Assembly (NCBI RefSeq): GCF_009363655.1
Contig: NZ_CP045393.1
Span: 1,240,001-1,304,000 of the forward strand
Source: Roseovarius sp. THAF27
Lineage (GTDB): Bacteria; Pseudomonadota; Alphaproteobacteria; Rhodobacterales; Rhodobacteraceae
DNA length: 64,000 bases
Reading direction: 5' to 3'
Of the stretch, positions 44,319 through 52,022 are shown piece by piece. The notes beneath the pieces were generated by a model. That model was not told where the DNA came from and did not search any database. It saw only the letters and a program-made list of their open reading frames with translations. How positions within the stretch are numbered: position 1 is the stretch's first letter; the number at the start of each line of letters is the position of its first letter. A program made the translations under genes and the position numbers.

Positions 44319-44412
44319 ACGCGCACGTCTTTCTTGCCCCGCGCCAAAGGTTTTGCGAAAACCCCAAAGAGCGGGCGCGCCTTCAAATCAGCCGTGGCGT
44401 ACCTATATTGAT

Positions 44413-44427
44413 GTTAAGGTAATTAAC
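44413..44427. promoter_or_regulatory. Inverted repeat upstream of the nine-gene cluster
   Basis: GTTAA-GGTAA-TTAAC (44413-44427) is a 5-nt inverted repeat in an AT-rich patch that begins 36 nt before the first gene. Its place and symmetry suit an operator or promoter region, but no regulator can be named. Confidence 0.35.
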
Positions 44428-44448: not shown

Positions 44449-45525
44449 ATGGCGAATTTGGATGCGCAGGTGCGCGAAAGTCAGGAGCAGGTCGCATCGG
44501 CGCAGGCGAAGATTGCCGAGCTGACCGGCAAGATCGAAAGCGCGCGGTCCAAGATCAAGGGCGGCGAGGATGCGAGCCTCGATATCGAGAACGCGACGCT
44601 GGACGAAGTGCACGCGCATACTGAGACGATGAATGCCAACATCGCCGAGCTGATCATGGGGCTGGACGATGTGACCGCGGGCTTCTCGCGCGATTTCGAC
44701 GAGATGCGTACCAAGACGGGCTGGGAAAGCTTCGTCGGTATCTTCAACCGCCATAAGGCCGACAGCATGCGGCAAGAGCGGATCCGCACCGCCAGCATCG
44801 ACGACAAGTTGCAGGACCTGATTTCCAAGTCCGACATCATCGTGCAATTGCTGGAAGGTCAGTTGCGCACGCTGGAAGAGCACAAGGTGAAGGTCGAGAC
44901 GAACCTTACCGAGACGCTGGACGAGCGCGAGGCGACGGTGGGCGAACTGGAAACGCTGCGCGCGGACATCCAGGGGATGGACCCCAAGATCATCGAACTG
45001 GAAAACAAGATCGCCAACGAGACCGACGCGGCCGCCCGCACCAAGCTGGAAAGCGAACTGGCGGAGATGAACGCCAAGTATAACGAGATGGTCCAGCAGG
45101 AGCAGGTCAAGCTGGCCAAATCGCAGACGCTGGAGCGCTATATCGAGAAGGGCAAGACCTGGGTCGATTCGCTGCAGAACCAGGCGGCGACGCAGATGGT
45201 GCTGATCAACAAGCTGCAGACGGACACCAAGCAGCGGGTCGTGCTCTATGATGCGCTGACCAAGTCGTTGAAGACCGCGCAGCAGCAGGACGTGGCGCAC
45301 CGGATCAACGAGATCGGAGTCAAGACCGACCAGGAGGCGCAGAGCGCCATGGCCGGCATCGGCGCGGCCACCAACCAGAAGATGGCCGACATGCTGGAGG
45401 CGCACGAGGATCACATGGTCTTTGCCCGCGAAGTGCTGGAGGCCAAGGCCAAGGCCGACGAGCGGTTCGCGCGGCGGTTCTCCAAGATCATCGAGAAGCA
45501 TGACGCCAACGCGTATGGCGGCTAA
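44449..45525 (+). CDS. Coiled-coil protein, first gene of the AAA+ cluster (distant TelA resemblance)
   Basis: A 358-residue soluble protein that is almost entirely helical, with long heptad-rich stretches (about 5-45 and 130-300) and no membrane segment. The middle G-W-E-S-F-V-G-I-F-N-R-H-K-A-D-S (about 98-113) interrupts the coil. The layout, a helical domain with paired coiled-coil arms, distantly recalls TelA/toxic-anion resistance proteins, but this is an impression, not a match. The next gene begins 3 nt after the stop. It is the first member of the tightly packed cluster at 44449-52022. Confidence 0.7.
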   Translation: MANLDAQVRESQEQVASAQAKIAELTGKIESARSKIKGGEDASLDIENATLDEVHAHTETMNANIAELIMGLDDVTAGFSRDFDEMRTKTGWESFVGIFNRHKADSMRQERIRTASIDDKLQDLISKSDIIVQLLEGQLRTLEEHKVKVETNLTETLDEREATVGELETLRADIQGMDPKIIELENKIANETDAAARTKLESELAEMNAKYNEMVQQEQVKLAKSQTLERYIEKGKTWVDSLQNQAATQMVLINKLQTDTKQRVVLYDALTKSLKTAQQQDVAHRINEIGVKTDQEAQSAMAGIGAATNQKMADMLEAHEDHMVFAREVLEAKAKADERFARRFSKIIEKHDANAYGG

Positions 45526-45528
45526 GGC

Positions 45529-45690
45529 ATGGGGCTTGGAACGCTTGCCATTGGTCTGTCTGTCGTCTGCCTGGTGGTGTCGTTCGTCTTTACCGTGCCG
45601 GCCTGGATGAACCTTGTCGGGGTGGGGTTCGGCATTGCAGGGTTGATCCTGATCGGGTTGTCGCGCCGGCGTGGCGGAGGCGGGACGTGA
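45529..45690 (+). CDS. Tiny two-helix membrane protein (53 aa)
   Basis: A 53-residue protein with two hydrophobic helices (about 4-24 and 28-44) joined by a T-V-P-A-W-M-N-L turn and a basic R-R-R-G-G-G-G-T tail. It starts 3 nt after the coiled-coil gene's stop and ends 36 nt before the next start. It has the codon use and spacing of a true gene and is too small for most gene finders. No family is recognised. Confidence 0.7.
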   Translation: MGLGTLAIGLSVVCLVVSFVFTVPAWMNLVGVGFGIAGLILIGLSRRRGGGGT

Positions 45691-45726
45691 GTGCGTCTGT
45701 CCCAAACAGCTGAGAAAGGCGTCGCG

Positions 45727-45978
45727 ATGGCCGAAAAAGAGACGTTTCCAATCGAGGTCGTGGTTATCTGCGGTGCGTTCCTTGGTATGATGCTGGCGGG
45801 CTGGCTGGGGCATTTCAGCCTGGCGCTGGTATTGCTGGGTGTCTGCCTCATCGCGATCCTGTGGTCGGTGATCGCCAGCCGGGGTGCGTCCGGCAATGGA
45901 GCCGAGGGCGGTTTCAGCGGCGGCGCCGATGCGGGTAGCGGAGGCGGTGGCGGCGCCTGTGGCGGGGGTGGCGAATGA
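45727..45978 (+). CDS. Small membrane protein with Gly/Ser/Cys-rich tail (83 aa)
   Basis: An 83-residue protein with two hydrophobic helices (about 9-26 and 28-48) and a disordered C-terminus made of Ala, Gly, Ser and one Cys (G-G-G-G-G-A-C-G-G-G-G-E). Such Gly/Cys tails occur on several unrelated bacterial membrane proteins. The chosen ATG has AGAAAGG just upstream; an in-frame GTG at 45691 would add 12 residues. The stop overlaps the start of the next gene (ATGA) by 4 nt. Confidence 0.7.
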   Translation: MAEKETFPIEVVVICGAFLGMMLAGWLGHFSLALVLLGVCLIAILWSVIASRGASGNGAEGGFSGGADAGSGGGGGACGGGGE

Positions 45979-47099
45979 TCGCGGATGCTCCGACATCTGA
46001 CCGGGCCGCCCTGACCGAGCTTTTCGCGTCACGCCGGTACTTCGCCAAGTTCGAGCGGATCACGGGGCATCTGAATCGCGTGGCCGCCGTGATGCAGGCC
46101 GAGGGCAACCTGGGCAAGCAGGAGGTCGAGATTCTGACCACCTATGTTCAGGGCATCGCCTATACGTTCAAGGCGCTGAGCATGAAATACCTGCTGGTCG
46201 GACGCGACACCGGGCAGTTTTTCGGCTCGCTGGCGATGGATGTGCGGGAAAGCGGTTTTCCGATGTTCTCGGAGCTGATGGTGATGGCCAATGATGCCGC
46301 ACAGGCGCGGCGGCACCTGGACGGGATGCCGGATACCGAAACGCTGAAGCGCGAGATGGTCGAGCAGATCATTTCCGAGCGGACCATTCCGACGCGCCTT
46401 CAGTTCGCGCTGTCGCAACGGCTTTACTACGAGGAGATGCTGCGCGGGCATCTTTTCTGGGCGCAGAACGATCCACAGATCCAATGGGTGAGCGGGCTGG
46501 ACGAGCGGCGGCGCTACCTGCTGCACTGGGCGGTCTATGACAGCCAGGTGAACCTGCCGACGATCTACCTGATGGAGGTCGAGGATACGGGCCGCGCGCC
46601 GCTGGGCAAGGACGAGCGGCGCTGGCCGGAATGCCAGGCGCACCTGATGGCGCAATCCCTGGGCGGATTGAAGTTGCTGACCATCGCCAAGGGGTTCGAC
46701 GAGAGCTTCGACGACCTGCATCCCAAGCGGCTGCGTCGGTTTCACGTCGGTCCGATGTACAGCCATGCCTTCACGCGGCAGACCGGGCCGCTGAGCGAGG
46801 TGCTGGCGCAGGCCGATGCGCCGGTGGGGCAGGACTGGGCACTGGCCTGGACCGACGAGGTGCTGGAAAGCGAACGGGTGATCGAGGAGCGCGCGGGCTG
46901 GTTCGGCACCGTGGAGCGCGAGGTTTTCGCGCTGGACCCCTTCTCGGGGAAAGGGGCCGAGACCGGGGCGACGCGGATGGAGCGCAGTATCATCCTGCCG
47001 GAGCGGCCCTATCAGGTTCTGGCCGAGAAGACCCCGCCGGGGTTTTCGTCGGTCACCAAGTACGTGGTCAGCCCGGGCGGCCGGGTGTTGAGATATTGA
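45975..47099 (+). CDS. Unknown cluster protein D (374 aa)
   Basis: A 374-residue soluble protein with no signal peptide or membrane helix. It has a helical N-terminal half (about 1-145) and a mixed C-terminal half including L-S-Q-R-L-Y-Y-E-E-M-L-R-G-H-L-F-W-A-Q-N and a C-terminal F-S-S-V-T-K-Y-V-V-S-P-G-G-R-V-L-R-Y beta-like end. I do not recognise the family. It is translationally coupled to the small Gly-rich membrane protein. It is followed by a palindromic repeat and then the AAA+ ATPase gene. Confidence 0.75.
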   Translation: MIADAPTSDRAALTELFASRRYFAKFERITGHLNRVAAVMQAEGNLGKQEVEILTTYVQGIAYTFKALSMKYLLVGRDTGQFFGSLAMDVRESGFPMFSELMVMANDAAQARRHLDGMPDTETLKREMVEQIISERTIPTRLQFALSQRLYYEEMLRGHLFWAQNDPQIQWVSGLDERRRYLLHWAVYDSQVNLPTIYLMEVEDTGRAPLGKDERRWPECQAHLMAQSLGGLKLLTIAKGFDESFDDLHPKRLRRFHVGPMYSHAFTRQTGPLSEVLAQADAPVGQDWALAWTDEVLESERVIEERAGWFGTVEREVFALDPFSGKGAETGATRMERSIILPERPYQVLAEKTPPGFSSVTKYVVSPGGRVLRY

Positions 47100-47104
47100 A
47101 CGCG

Positions 47105-47163
47105 AGGTGGGGTGAGACCCCACCCTGCGCCAGTTTGGTAGGGTGGGTTTCAAACCCACCACC
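47105..47163. repeat. Two palindromes between cluster genes D and the ATPase
   Basis: GTGGGG-TGA-GACCCCAC type inverted repeat (47107-47123) is followed by the GTAGGGTGGGTTTCAAACCC-ACC element (47138-47163). The second belongs to the GTGGGTTTTCACCCAC family in inverse orientation. They occupy the 76-nt gap inside what is otherwise one same-strand gene run. Confidence 0.75.
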
Positions 47164-47175
47164 GGGGAGAAGAAG

Positions 47176-49119
47176 ATGAGTTTGACGGCCGACACAATGG
47201 AATTGCGGGAAGAGGATATCGCCAAGCATTACGATGCTGCCGCAGCGATGCTGGCGGGGTTCGATCATACGCCGCGCATCGCCAAGCCGGGCGACGCGCC
47301 GCAGGAGGAGAAGTCGGCCGGGTTGGGCACGCGGCGGCGGTTTCGGACGACGACGCCTGGGCTGGTGACACGCTCGACCGCGCGACCCGAGGGCGTGCAT
47401 CTGGTGGAGCGGATCGAGGCTGCCGATGGCGACGACCCGCTGGTCAGCCCGATGCAGGCGACGGTATTGCATGGCCTGCGGCGGGCGATTGCGATCGCGC
47501 TGGCGGTGGGAGAGCAGTTTTCCGACGCCACGGGCCTGGCGGATCTGCGGCGGGCGAACCTGGCCGGGTCGCTGGGCGCGGATCGCAAGACCGAGTTCAC
47601 CGAGCTTCTGGGGGCCGAGGCTCTGGCGGTGGGGCATGTCTTTGCCAACGCGACGGCCTTCCTGCTGGCGCCGCACGGCTCGGAGGTGAGCGTCGAGGTG
47701 GGCGAGGTCGAGGAGGTTCTGACCGACAATTCGCAACTTGCCCTGCATGGCGCGTTGTGGGAACTGGACCAGGATATCGCGGCCCATGCGGGCGACGATG
47801 CGCGGCTGGTGGCGACGGTCAGCGCCTTTGCCGAGCAGTTGATGGAGAAGATCGCGCTGCGCGCCCAGAATGCCGGGCGGTTGAGTGCCTTCACCGGCGC
47901 AAGCTGGCGCGTCGAGGCGGATGATTTCACCATTCGCGGCTTTGACGCGGCATCGAAGGGCAAGTCCAGCACCCTGACCATGACCTTCAAGCAGCCGCAC
48001 GAGGTGGTGGGCAACCATATCGCCAAGTACCAGGCGCTGAAGCTCAGCAAGATGCTGATGGCCTATGATTTCGAGCGAAAGCTGAACCCGTTCGCGGAAC
48101 TGGGCGGGTTCATCTTTACCTTCATGGGCGACGGCAAGCCGGGGACGGGCAAGACGACGCTGATCCAGATGATGGCGGGGCTGATCAAGGGCTATTGCGA
48201 CAACGCAGGCTATCCGTTCAGGTATCAGAACCTCAGCACCGAGAGCATCGACAGCTACCAGGGCAAGTCGGCGCAGAACGCCAAGGCGTTCATCAACACC
48301 GTGATCGATCCCGGCGTGATCGGGTTCGGCACGATCGACGATATCGACCAGCTGGCGGGCAAGCGCGGCGACCGGCAATCGAGCGCGGGACAGCTGGAGA
48401 TCACCGCCGTGCTGATGGAGAGCTTTGCCGGGGCCAACACGGTGGTGCGGGGAAATTGCACCTTCGGCATGTTCTCGAACTATCCCGAGAACGTGGACGA
48501 CGCGCTGCGCCAGCGGGCAGGGGCGCGGTTCCTGGTGGACGGGCCGCAGACGCGGGAGGATTATATCGATATCCTTTACCTGCTGATGGGCAAGAACCAT
48601 GACATTCCGCTGGGCCAGCACGAGGTCTATGCCGCGCAGGAGATCAAGAAGGCCGTGGCGGCCTCGTTCGAGAGCCACGCGCGGCCCCATGAGGAGGGGC
48701 TGATCCGGGTCTATGAGCGAGTAGAGAAGGATATCGGCAGGCTCGACACGATTGCCAAGCTGGGAACCTATCTGAAAGGCATCCAGGAGGCGGACGAAGG
48801 CTTTACGGGCCGGGCGATCAAGAACATCACCGACGCGGTGAAGGTGCGGGCGATGGATTTCGAACTGCCGGACGAGTGGATGGAAAAGCCCGACCTGTTC
48901 CTGTTCAAATCCTATGACGAGAAGAAGGGGATGATCGAGGAGTTGCGTCAGCCGATCACGGTGGAAATGGTGATCCAGGAGATCAACCGCTACGCGGACA
49001 GCGAGTTCCGCTATGCGGACAAGTCCGACGAGGTGGCGATCGAGGCCATGGTGCGCGATTTCGGTCGGACGGAAGAGGCCAAGCGGCGGTACATGGCGGA
49101 GAAGGAGAGCGGTGCGTGA
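47176..49119 (+). CDS. AAA+ ATPase of the unknown nine-gene cluster
   Basis: A 647-residue cytoplasmic ATPase. The Walker A motif G-D-G-K-P-G-T-G-K-T-T-L is at 318-329 (Lys326), Walker B-like G-F-G-T-I-D-D-I-D-Q near 384-392, and an arginine-finger type R-Q-R-A-G-A-R follows near 442. The first 300 residues form a separate, mostly helical domain of no recognised family, and a helical C-terminal region (from about 540) precedes the stop. It is not a typical FtsH, Clp, MoxR or Lon protein by overall layout. The start has GGGGAGAAGA upstream. It is the likely motor of the cluster. Confidence 0.8.
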   Translation: MSLTADTMELREEDIAKHYDAAAAMLAGFDHTPRIAKPGDAPQEEKSAGLGTRRRFRTTTPGLVTRSTARPEGVHLVERIEAADGDDPLVSPMQATVLHGLRRAIAIALAVGEQFSDATGLADLRRANLAGSLGADRKTEFTELLGAEALAVGHVFANATAFLLAPHGSEVSVEVGEVEEVLTDNSQLALHGALWELDQDIAAHAGDDARLVATVSAFAEQLMEKIALRAQNAGRLSAFTGASWRVEADDFTIRGFDAASKGKSSTLTMTFKQPHEVVGNHIAKYQALKLSKMLMAYDFERKLNPFAELGGFIFTFMGDGKPGTGKTTLIQMMAGLIKGYCDNAGYPFRYQNLSTESIDSYQGKSAQNAKAFINTVIDPGVIGFGTIDDIDQLAGKRGDRQSSAGQLEITAVLMESFAGANTVVRGNCTFGMFSNYPENVDDALRQRAGARFLVDGPQTREDYIDILYLLMGKNHDIPLGQHEVYAAQEIKKAVAASFESHARPHEEGLIRVYERVEKDIGRLDTIAKLGTYLKGIQEADEGFTGRAIKNITDAVKVRAMDFELPDEWMEKPDLFLFKSYDEKKGMIEELRQPITVEMVIQEINRYADSEFRYADKSDEVAIEAMVRDFGRTEEAKRRYMAEKESGA

Positions 49120-49140
49120 GAGCACTTGCGCCAAGCGGCA

Positions 49141-49509
49141 ATGAACGACACGAGCGTGACATTGGTGAACACCGGCTTGCCGCTGGCTATCATCGGCGGG
49201 TTGGCGGCGTTGCTGCCGTGGCTTTTGACGCCGCGGGGGACGCGGTCGCATGGCCGGGTTCTGGTGTCGGTGGTGCTGTCGGTGCTTCTGCTGCTGGCGG
49301 CGAGCGCGTGTGTGTTTGCGCTGTTCGACAAGCGCAGCCTTCTGGGCGGGCAGACGCTTGCCGGGCAGGGGATCATCGCGTGGATGTACTTGCGCAGTTC
49401 GTTGGGGGCGGTGGCGGTATGGGGTCCGGTGCTGGCCTTCGTCTGGCTGGGGCTGGCGCAGCGGGTGGAGCGGTTGAAGGAGAAGGATGTTGTGAGGGGG
49501 CAGCCGTGA
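49141..49509 (+). CDS. Membrane protein of the AAA+ cluster (122 aa)
   Basis: A 122-residue protein with three hydrophobic helices (about 10-28, 38-58 and 81-104) and a charged C-terminus. The ATG is 21 nt after the ATPase stop. An in-frame TTG at 49126 would add five residues and is also possible, as no strong ribosome-binding site distinguishes the two. No family is recognised. Its position between the ATPase and protein G suggests a membrane subunit of the same system. Confidence 0.7.
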   Translation: MNDTSVTLVNTGLPLAIIGGLAALLPWLLTPRGTRSHGRVLVSVVLSVLLLLAASACVFALFDKRSLLGGQTLAGQGIIAWMYLRSSLGAVAVWGPVLAFVWLGLAQRVERLKEKDVVRGQP

Positions 49510-49539
49510 CAGGCGCGTGTGCAATCATGGCACCTGGCC

Positions 49540-49601
49540 GTCCCGGGCGCGACCCGGGACCTCAGCTTCGGAAAAGAGGGGCCCCGGATCGGGTCCGGGG
49601 C
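49540..49601. repeat. Two GC-rich inverted repeats within the cluster
   Basis: GTCCCGGG-CGCGA-CCCGGGAC (49540-49560) and GCCCCGGA-TCGGG-TCCGGGGC (49581-49601). Both belong to the structural family at 5158 and 35625. Confidence 0.75.
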
Positions 49602-49627
49602 GCGGTGGCGCTTGGGGCAGGCCGGGG

Positions 49628-49654
49628 GTGGTGGGTTGAAAACCCACCCTACGG
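49628..49654. repeat. GGTGGGTTGAAAACCCACCCTACGG repeat
   Basis: A palindrome GTGGGTT / AACCCAC around GAA with the CCTACGG tail of the GTGGGTTTTCACCCAC family. It ends 9 nt before the start of protein G, so it may overlap its ribosome-binding region (ACGGAGGGG). Confidence 0.8.
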
Positions 49655-49663
49655 AGGGGATGC

Positions 49664-51076
49664 ATGGAACGTCTGATCAGATCCGGCCTGATGTTCGGCA
49701 ACCTGGTGCATGTGGCCAGCCCGGCGCTGGTGGAGCGATACAATCGCGCGCTGAAGCACCTGACGGGCAAGACCACGAGCCTGACGGATTTCTACGTCGA
49801 TATCTCTGGCTTTTCGCCGGAGGTGGGGCATGAGCTGGGTGATGACCTTTACCTCAACCATGCAGGCGTGAACCGGCAGTTCATCCTATTGACCACGGAG
49901 CAGAAGCGCGCGCCGCTCTTGAATGCGCAGTTCTCGACCAGTCGGGGCATCCTGAAGCAGTTCATCGAGGAAAACGAGCCGGCGCTGTTTGCTCTGACGG
50001 CGCGGGACGCGGTGGCGGGCGAGTTGGTCAATTCGGTCTATGACATGTCGAGCCCCGCGCGCCTGTTCGATATCCGCCGTATCACCATCGAGGCGGACAC
50101 CACCAACGGGGCGCTTCGGCAGGCCGAGAAGCTGGACGAAAAGGTCGAGCGGTTCATGTCGGAAGAGGACGCCTGGTTCGACGACGTGCTGATCGCCGAG
50201 ATGATCGAGTTGGCCGGGCAGACCGGGGACGTGCTGCGCAATCCCATCGACCTGAAGGAAATGAGTTTCGAGCAGCGCAATTACTGGACCGATCATTTCG
50301 GCGGCGTGTACCTGTTTCAGGACCTCGAACTGCCGGGTGTGATCTGCGTCTCGGACAAGACCCCCTTCGAGAGCGAGCGGATCGAGTATGTCTTTGGCAT
50401 CGACGAGCGGAACCGGATTGCCAGTTTCCTCGATCTCAACGGGCTGGTGGAGCCGATCGTCAAGGCACGCGGCATAGATGCGTCGGCGATCCTGCGGCAG
50501 AAGATGGATTTCATGCTGGTCGATGCGCTGGCGGATGAAGGCGTGGAGTTCGCGGGCCGCAGCCGCGCCGAGATGCGCCGGCTGGCGCGGCGGCACTCGG
50601 ACCTTTTGCCGGAGGAGTTTCACACGCTCAACGCGCTGCTGAACTGGGCCGAGAATGGCGGCCCCTGGCCGGTGATAAGCTCGGACAATCCGGCGTACTT
50701 CTACACGCTGCGGGCCGCGGCGAACAAGGATGCGGACCTGGTCAACATGCTTCTGGCGGAGCTGGCGCCGAAGGACGTGAGGCAGCTGTTCATTTGCCAC
50801 AAGAGCCTTTTCTACCGCCGTTACGAGACATGGGCGGATACCAAGAGGGCCTATGTGGTGGACCTGTTGCTGAACGAATACCAGGTGGACAAGATGGGCA
50901 CGCGCGCGGCGCTTTTCGGGCACGAGGCCCCAATGGAAGAGCCGGCGCCGCCGAGACCGCCCGAGCCCGAGCCGGAGTTCGAGGCGGTTGTGCGGCGGGT
51001 CGGCCCCTGGGGGCCTGTGACGCGCCGGGCTGGCAAGGGCACGCCCTATTCGGCGGACAGGAAGACGAGGAGATAG
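49664..51076 (+). CDS. Unknown cluster protein G (470 aa)
   Basis: A 470-residue soluble protein without signal peptide. Its first half (G-L-M-F-G-N-L-V-H-V-A-S-P-A-L-V-E-R-Y-N, then D-F-Y-V-D-I-S-G-F-S-P-E-V-G) and helical second half belong to no family I can name. The C-terminus is Pro/Glu-rich (P-R-P-P-E-P-E-P-E-F-E near 430), then basic. Proteins of this type occur in Rhodobacterales. GGAGGGG 7 nt before the ATG is a strong ribosome-binding site. The next gene begins 3 nt after the stop. Confidence 0.75.
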   Translation: MERLIRSGLMFGNLVHVASPALVERYNRALKHLTGKTTSLTDFYVDISGFSPEVGHELGDDLYLNHAGVNRQFILLTTEQKRAPLLNAQFSTSRGILKQFIEENEPALFALTARDAVAGELVNSVYDMSSPARLFDIRRITIEADTTNGALRQAEKLDEKVERFMSEEDAWFDDVLIAEMIELAGQTGDVLRNPIDLKEMSFEQRNYWTDHFGGVYLFQDLELPGVICVSDKTPFESERIEYVFGIDERNRIASFLDLNGLVEPIVKARGIDASAILRQKMDFMLVDALADEGVEFAGRSRAEMRRLARRHSDLLPEEFHTLNALLNWAENGGPWPVISSDNPAYFYTLRAAANKDADLVNMLLAELAPKDVRQLFICHKSLFYRRYETWADTKRAYVVDLLLNEYQVDKMGTRAALFGHEAPMEEPAPPRPPEPEPEFEAVVRRVGPWGPVTRRAGKGTPYSADRKTRR

Positions 51077-51079
51077 GAC

Positions 51080-51346
51080 ATGGCGGCACTGGCGAGACTT
51101 CTGATCATCGGGTTCATCGTCTGCACGATCCTGTATGTCGTCCTGTCGATCTATTCCCGGAGCGTGCGAAAAGGCAAGCTGCGCGAATGGTGGGAGGAGG
51201 AAGGCCGGCCCGGCGACCTGGACGCCTACATCGAAAAGGGGCTGGAGGCGTATGACGGATCGCTCCGGCGCAAGCTGATCCTCGGGGTCTATGTCGTGCC
51301 GTTCAGCATCGTGGCGGCGATCATCTACTTCACGAATTTTCACTGA
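51080..51346 (+). CDS. Small membrane protein of the cluster (88 aa)
   Basis: An 88-residue protein with two hydrophobic segments (about 5-26 and 65-85) and a charged middle (K-L-R-E-W-W-E-E-E near 33-41) that would face the cytoplasm or periplasm as a loop. The start is 3 nt after protein G's stop, which indicates coupled translation. It ends 13 nt before the DUF1523 gene. No named family is recognised. Confidence 0.72.
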   Translation: MAALARLLIIGFIVCTILYVVLSIYSRSVRKGKLREWWEEEGRPGDLDAYIEKGLEAYDGSLRRKLILGVYVVPFSIVAAIIYFTNFH

Positions 51347-51359
51347 AGGGGGTGGGACG

Positions 51360-52022
51360 TTGGTTTACTTGAAATGGCTGTTCTGGAGTGTTTTCTGGGT
51401 GCTGGTGGCCGCTTTTTTCCACTACACCCTGCCACAGACCGATATCGTGCGGGTGACGGACACCTATGAAAAGCGCATAGATTTCGGCGAGAACAGCCTG
51501 TTCTGGGCCAGTCCGGATGCCGGCAACGACATGACGCCGATCAACCGCGACGTCTTTTTCATCCAGACGGTGCGGGCGAATGGCAGCACGATGGTCTATC
51601 GCAACGAGGATACCGGGTGGGGCTGGCCGCCTTACTTCAAGTTCGACACGTCCAACCTGCAGGCCGAGGCGGCCGATCTGAAATCCACCGCCGAGGCGCC
51701 GCGATGGGCGGCGCTGAAACATTACGGCTGGCGCAACGAGTTCCTGTCTATCTTTCCCAACGGTGTGAGCATCTGGCCGGTTGCGGGGCCGGATGCGGGC
51801 AAGCCCTTCCCGTGGCTGAACCTGCTGATCCTGACGGGTTTTGCCATCGTGGTTTTCGGCACCTGGCGGGTCTGGCGCGGGTTCCGGGCCAGGCGGCTCG
51901 ACCCGGTCTGGGACGGGGTCGAGGCCCGTTTCGACGCTGCCGGGAATGCGATAGAGGACCGACGCGGGCGCGTCCGGCGCTGGCTGGATACCTGGCGGCC
52001 GAAGGACAAGCGCCGGGACTGA
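51360..52022 (+). CDS. DUF1523 family membrane protein
   Basis: A 220-residue protein with one N-terminal transmembrane helix (about 6-22), a periplasmic domain (about 24-150, with R-V-T-D-T-Y-E-K-R and W-G-W-P-P-Y-F-K-F-D), a second membrane helix (about 157-177) and a basic cytoplasmic tail. This layout and the D-T-Y-E-K-R / Y-F-K-F-D wording match DUF1523, a family of unknown function. The start is a TTG with GAAGGGGG upstream. It is the last gene of the same-strand run and is convergent with the sulfotransferase-like gene, 22 nt away. Confidence 0.8.
   Translation: MVYLKWLFWSVFWVLVAAFFHYTLPQTDIVRVTDTYEKRIDFGENSLFWASPDAGNDMTPINRDVFFIQTVRANGSTMVYRNEDTGWGWPPYFKFDTSNLQAEAADLKSTAEAPRWAALKHYGWRNEFLSIFPNGVSIWPVAGPDAGKPFPWLNLLILTGFAIVVFGTWRVWRGFRARRLDPVWDGVEARFDAAGNAIEDRRGRVRRWLDTWRPKDKRRD

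Follow-up and report, generated by a model that had tools for sequence, protein, structure and literature searches.

Introduction

Which of nine genes standing in a row in Roseovarius sp. THAF27 belong together, and what might they do? The genes lie within a stretch of 64,000 nucleotides (nt), here called the window, and were lettered A to I in their order along the + strand. The sequence-only reading that drew attention to them treated all nine as a single set. We found that a core of four genes (A, D, E, and G), including one for an AAA+ ATPase, is conserved across genomes, that two slots within this core (B/C and F) exchange their genes, and that H and I form a tail. In the second slot, between E and G, unrelated genes replace one another, some of them resembling abortive-infection genes; both this exchange and a palindrome before A in relatives had been missed by the earlier reading. 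The nine open reading frames (ORFs), which span positions 44449 to 52022 on the + strand exactly as first delimited, are as follows.

44449..45525, + strand: gene A, a 358-amino-acid coiled-coil protein
45529..45690, + strand: gene B, a 53-amino-acid protein with two transmembrane segments in slot 1 (variable); family f2, 10 ORFs
45727..45978, + strand: gene C, an 83-amino-acid protein with two transmembrane segments and a Gly-rich tail in slot 1 (variable)
45975..47099, + strand: gene D, a 374-amino-acid core protein without a known family
47176..49119, + strand: gene E, the AAA+ ATPase, core
49141..49509, + strand: gene F, a 122-amino-acid protein with several transmembrane segments in slot 2; family f0, the commonest, 29 ORFs
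49664..51076, + strand: gene G, a DUF6638 core protein
51080..51346, + strand: gene H, an 88-amino-acid protein with hydrophobic segments at both ends, found 3' of G in Rhodobacteraceae loci
about 51360..52022, + strand: gene I, a DUF1523 membrane protein; its TTG start was picked by eye

Many junctions had been described as overlapping or 3 to 4 nt long. This holds for A-B and G-H (3 nt each) and for C-D, which overlap by 4 nt, and is only partly true of the operon because D-E measures 76 nt and F-G 154 nt.

A core of four genes

We sampled the window's family with one genome for each genus; of these 149 genomes, 65 carried A, 63 D, 63 E, and 69 G. These were largely the same genomes, with neighboring coordinates, and the co-occurrence of the four genes is far from chance. 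Degraded operon remnants in two genomes (G182 and G262) explain part of the unequal counts; besides, G lies at a contig end in G222 and G261 and near a contig start in G158, and A lies near a contig end in G260. A class-wide draw of 115 genomes contained E in 2, counting that of the window, and among the 398 genomes of a phylum-wide draw 29 carried A and 26 carried D, all 26 being among the 29 (the kinship labels of compared genomes are those assigned by the search tool). At least 593 stretches of GTDB genomes fitted a pattern; 576 of those listed encode a relative of A, and the best 80 were kept. The nearest named relatives among the matches listed were Roseovarius, and the E protein of one locus (L124) was 98% identical to that of the window.

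Altogether, 141 loci were examined, and the counts below refer to the 116 in which none of A, D, E, G, H, and I was missing. These include five duplicates and contain 111 distinct E sequences; seven further loci with A, D, E, and G in which a match to H or I was absent were excluded. The order of the six genes was identical in all 116 complete operons. Shared genomes and gene order thus bear out the proposal of one co-inherited system that combines an ATPase with a coiled coil and membrane proteins.

In Vibrio parahaemolyticus and V. vulnificus, records about 0.9 Mb in size contain A-D-E-G but neither H nor I nor any slot gene (profiles were run on two of the three), and on Sinorhizobium pSymB the order is A-D-E, a DUF559-type gene and an IS4 element, G, and DUF2333. 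Eight-sequence alignments reaching from alpha- to gammaproteobacteria (the window, three distant family members, three rhizobia, and one Vibrio) contained 68 invariant residues in A, 34 in D, 143 in E, and 32 in G. Because Vibrio and Sinorhizobium keep A-D-E-G and each of the four proteins shares invariant residues across these alignments, we take A-D-E-G as the core; B, C, and F are slot occupants, and H and I are additions seen in Rhodobacteraceae loci. If homologues of the ATPase, D, and G were regularly found apart, a unit would be hard to maintain. What we found mostly argues for the unit, with two kinds of exception: a genome with G-H-I alone, taken up below, and three genomes (L283, L284, and L285) with a diverged A alone after a thymidine kinase-looking gene, without matches to D, E, or G, whose family code is that of the rhizobia-like carriers. 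A thymidine kinase gene likewise lies 5' of A-D-E-G on Sinorhizobium pSymB. In the Vibrio replicons (L230, L231, and L232, listed as plasmids), mfd, encoding the transcription-repair coupling factor, lies 3' of A-D-E-G, and SIMPL, DUF3592, and A24 peptidase genes are nearby. In one operon outside the window's class (L275 in genome G313), A and D score like those of Rhodobacteraceae, which points to horizontal transfer.

Gene-for-gene exchange between E and G

Gaps of more than 250 nt were concentrated at two places, being found between E and G in 97 of the 116 loci and between A and D in 51; they occurred between D and E in 14 loci and never between G and H or between H and I. Genes in the slots were called by longest-ORF tiling, so that the calls are approximate and sometimes have a wrong frame, as for F of the window, or an over-long start (codon-usage calling failed on AT-rich genes). 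Slot 2 held only F-like membrane proteins (families f0, f3, and f6) in 26 loci, a gene of another family in 64, and no recognized gene in 26. The non-F ORFs numbered 68 and fell into 36 sequence families; the slot 2 counts leave out f69, f106, and f142 (F-type, with over-long starts) and the broken locus L118.

The composition of these ORFs differs from that of the core. Their median guanine-plus-cytosine (GC) fraction was 0.120 under the core value, compared with 0.014 and 0.044 for the control genes I and H, and 22 of the 36 families (50 ORFs) contained ORFs more than 0.08 below core GC. On a FastTree tree of E, family f1 required 11 changes for 11 loci, f7 and f8 5 for 5 each, f11 3 for 3, f5 5 for 6 (two of these loci are duplicates), and f13, f19, and f27 2 for 2 each. 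Slot proteins of the same family were 22 to 56% identical, whereas the E proteins of the same loci were 69 to 84% identical (among the pairs listed, the first 15 for f1, with the duplicate pair L154/L082 left out); the identity, flank, Pfam, and PADLOC comparisons exclude the window, the five duplicate loci, and ORFs shorter than 110 amino acids. Because there is nearly one change per locus and the slot proteins are so much less alike than E, members of the same family were most likely acquired separately. Family f1 is a loose one (alignment A7), with a common membrane segment, an invariant GDTLAG, and differing C-terminal parts, and only some of its members match putAbiC.

The exchange is also precise. 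Among 46 loci with a single non-F gene in slot 2, this gene starts within 20 nt of the E stop in 37 and ends within 20 nt of the G start in 34, and it fits at both sides in 28. By the same limit, the single F-like genes of 20 loci fit at the E stop in 13, at the G start in 8, and at both in 5. In eight pairs of congeners, DNA identity of about 84 to 93% runs up to or just past the E stop, or through a shared f0 gene, breaks there, and picks up again at or close to the following gene or G. An example is L148, which carries f27, compared with L149, which carries f8; L173 and L186 have f3 and f6 in common and differ in the first slot gene.

Proteins encoded in slot 2

Pfam and PADLOC were run on 68 slot proteins, which still include three F-type proteins and one doubtful ORF. 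Pfam matches were to putAbiC (four proteins), AbiJ_NTD4 (two), HNH, DUF3825, DUF2971, and a thioredoxin-like family (one each). Besides, RX4-6H motifs, which are carried by HEPN RNases, were found in all six f5 loci and in both members each of f13 and f27; those in f11 were not convincing. The GIY-YIG look of one further protein, f117, was judged by eye, and Pfam gave no match for it. Among 68 random flanking genes, the matches were to ordinary metabolic families (first 25 of 71 matches listed). In the explanation favored below, the exchangeable genes of the operon are probably antiphage genes.

The core proteins

E belongs to the AAA+ proteins, scoring 46.7 bits against AAA (PF00004; cutoff, 21.2; E value, 5.6e-12). 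PGTGKT, D388-D389, and R445-Q-R447 were invariant in the eight sequences and place E among proteins with Walker and arginine-finger motifs; we take GKPGTGKT to be Walker A, IGFGTIDDID to be Walker B, and RQR to be the arginine-finger region. An invariant Y-Q-G-K-S stretch seems to sit where the pore loop of AAA+ proteins presumably lies, judging from Vps4. These features suit a ring that would engage and remodel a protein.

A is the most conserved core member within the family, with a mean column identity of 82% and a nearly invariant C-terminal part, which could be a natural binding site for E, D, or G. G is a clear member of DUF6638 (PF20343; 739.7 bits; 1.5e-222; positions 1 to 439 of 439), and I of DUF1523 (PF07509; 231.2 bits against a cutoff of 23; 6.5e-69); both families lack a described function. 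No convincing family was found for A, B, C, D, F, or H in profile searches, the weak coiled-coil-typical matches of A being set aside, and D had no Pfam match at E values up to 1. Profile searches of the PDB with A, D, E, and G returned nothing useful.

A palindrome before A, the H-I tail, and PspA neighbors

TGTAA-N7-T[TA]AC was found 5' of A in 61 of the 116 loci; a search of both strands (2.25 Mb) showed it nowhere else in those loci. When the spacer was set to 4, 5, 6, 8, 9, or 10, the corresponding pattern occurred 5' of A in no more than one locus and at 0 to 5 sites elsewhere. CtrA sites 5' of A were also considered and were rejected, being found in only 1 of 110 loci. The following elements were noted in the window.

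44410..44427, + strand: GATGTTAAGGTAATTAAC, a possible degenerate look-alike of the palindrome, picked by eye; it does not fit the pattern, lies closer to A, and is putative
47142..47160, no strand: inverted repeat GGTGGGTTTCAAACCCACC in the D-E gap
49630..49648, no strand: inverted repeat GGTGGGTTGAAAACCCACC in the F-G gap

GGTGGG...CCCACC inverted repeats lie at window positions 47106, 47142, 49630, 6962, and 6983, that is, in the D-E gap, in the F-G gap, and near 6.96 kb. Short translated stretches recurring in the slot gaps of relatives resemble these repeats.

H-I was present in 39 of 39 Rhodobacteraceae loci in one set and in 116 of the 123 loci with A, D, E, and G. The G-H gap never exceeded 57 nt, and the H-I gap never exceeded 75 nt. 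In two degraded operons (L103:8823-10291 and L102:3427-6780), H and I are still open reading frames, which suggests that H-I has a use of its own.

In six Tateyamaria loci, a PspA-like gene lies some 0.9 kb 5' of A (in L145, a TetR-like gene separates the two), and another lies near I in L276. Elsewhere in the window's own genome (L223:7829-9976), a DUF1523 paralogue of I, a TetR-like gene, and a PspA-like gene adjoin, and DUF1523 and PspA also lie near each other in L219 and L225. The PspA-like neighbors lend some support to the idea of an envelope-linked machine, which had been put forward for all nine genes and does not extend to them all.

Comparison with known systems

In the main text of a survey (PMC11237479), AAA+ ATPases are described as occasional partners of PspA, with a proposed joint action at the membrane under envelope stress; neither DUF1523 nor Rhodobac- occurs in that text. 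The operon resembles such phage-shock systems in its PspA-like neighbors and differs from them in that its own A is not PspA by profile comparison. Compared from the genes alone, it would work like ESCRT-III and Vps4 if E disassembles a helical polymer of A.

Zorya has a membrane-linked core with interchangeable partners, and this operon may be alike in that, although none of the nine window proteins matched ZorA or ZorB at E values up to 1 in PADLOC. In the cyclic oligonucleotide-based antiphage signaling system (CBASS) with TRIP13, an AAA+ regulator is combined with swappable effectors. Here, too, an AAA+ protein stands beside swappable genes, but PADLOC gave no match to a cyclase or a HORMA protein among the nine, and E matched TRIP13 at 3.1e-05 only. 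Chromosomal defense hotspots, as well as genes nested in bacteriophage exclusion (BREX) or restriction-modification operons, present variable defense genes between conserved neighbors; in this case, by contrast, the exchange is gene for gene inside an operon of conserved genes that are not annotated as defense. A literature search of partial coverage found no paper on this operon or on DUF6638, and the DUF1523 papers were unrelated by title. Provisionally, we regard the system as categorically new, on the basis of the absence of membership in these systems and of that partial search.

A possible function and its alternatives

We tentatively favor the explanation, as yet short of probable, that A-D-E-G is a membrane-associated AAA+ remodeling machine working beside the PspA envelope-stress response and that its operon offers exchangeable accessory genes a regulated place to dock. 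A would be the substrate or a scaffold at the membrane, and D and G would be adaptors. E would form an AAA+ ring with a pore-loop-like aromatic residue and use ATP to pull A, or the partners of A, apart, and H-I and the small slot 1 proteins may anchor the machine in the envelope. The product of the slot 2 gene would be a lineage-specific output, either the membrane protein F or a protein of abortive-infection type (putAbiC, AbiJ-like, with a HEPN motif, or HNH), and would restrict the spread of phage once the envelope has been breached. Because their genes lie between E and G, slot proteins would be made together with the machine. We favor an envelope-stress AAA+ machine with an output socket because E suits a remodeling ring, the C terminus of A is conserved, and the slot proteins are membrane proteins or, in a minority, abortive-infection-like. 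A stronger version is unlikely, namely, that A-D-E-G is a modular immune chassis in which AAA+/coiled-coil envelope surveillance, tied to PspA and under its own palindromic operator, fires whichever effector sits in the E-G slot, with effectors traded gene for gene between related bacteria.

Several observations weigh against the favored explanation. The Walker B pair of E is D-D; the second acidic residue of Walker B is usually glutamate, and because it is aspartate here, ATP hydrolysis by E is not assured. PspA-like genes lie near the operon in seven loci only, six of them from one genus, and the palindrome is missing 5' of A in 55 of the 116 loci, including the window and its nearest relatives (L124 to L128). 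One genome (G210; L119:233-5588) is a real exception to the conserved core, with an intact G-H-I 3' of a polA-looking gene and no A, D, or E. As 26 of the 116 loci lack a recognized slot 2 gene and the Vibrio operons consist of A-D-E-G alone, slot genes are dispensable. About 58 of the 68 scanned slot proteins had no Pfam match at 1e-4, and PADLOC matched up to 7 of the 68 (AbiP, 3; mREase_IV, 2; PDC-S31, 1; DrmA, 1) versus up to 5 of 68 random flanking genes, the latter via general domains, these tallies being silent on coinciding members. Enrichment of defense genes by PADLOC counts is thus unconvincing, and the defense label rests on a minority of the slot proteins. In the 149 genomes, 5 of 9 f1 matches and 2 of 6 f5 matches were outside the slot and a further f5 match was in the degraded G182 locus, ratios that are biased toward the slot because the models were built from four in-slot f1 and three in-slot f5 matches. 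The two families are therefore not exclusive to the slot. The operon flanks sampled look metabolic, unlike a defense island. Finally, a search of the phage collection gave no E and one of IMG/VR no A, and we rejected a phage-borne system for this reason.

Much of this would be expected under a close rival, which we regard as possible if somewhat doubtful: that the core performs a task in the envelope or in protein quality that has nothing to do with phage and that E-G is just a permissive site at which solitary, mobile abi-like genes land and make use of an existing promoter. Judged by eye, the off-slot copies of f1 and f5 are indeed solitary, AT-rich genes amid housekeeping-looking genes, one of them near phage-looking genes, and the metabolic flanks, the strong conservation of A, and the operons without a recognized slot 2 gene agree with such a passive hotspot. 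On the other hand, the concentration of long gaps at E-G and A-D, with none at G-H or H-I, argues against it, and random insertion would not readily yield genes that fit both neighbors in 28 of 46 loci.

Alternatively, the operon might be a dedicated modular antiphage system whose core itself detects infection and activates the slot protein directly, much as effectors are activated in CBASS or Zorya. The swappable gene in a fixed core, the occupants of Abi, HEPN-motif, and HNH type, and their foreign GC fit this proposal. Nevertheless, we consider it unlikely, given that PADLOC recognized no known defense core protein among the nine (E matching TRIP13 only weakly), that the sampled flanks are not defense islands, and that the occupants are not exclusive to the slot. 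More improbable still is an assembly or maturation chaperone for an envelope complex, a use to which MoxR-like AAA+ proteins are put, with the slot proteins as its varied clients; an AAA+ protein beside many small membrane proteins would accord with it, whereas soluble nuclease-like occupants would be poor clients, and there is no constant partner enzyme. A diverged TelA/Ter or PspA/ESCRT-III system, suggested by the presumably long and helical A, its AAA+ partner, and PspA near some loci, is very improbable, as hhalign gave A probabilities of 0.3 as TelA (PF05816) and 4.0 as PspA/IM30 (PF04012), against split-half controls of 100 each, and A matched neither family.

Implications

If the favored explanation of a remodeling machine with a docking site is true, a membrane-stress machine would serve these bacteria as a plug-in socket for antiphage genes, which would join the fields of phage shock and abortive infection. 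The E-G slot would then also be an easy place in which to look for new effectors, given how many of the scanned proteins are without a Pfam match. Even with a nondefensive core, it is striking in evolutionary terms that whole genes are exchanged so precisely within a conserved operon.

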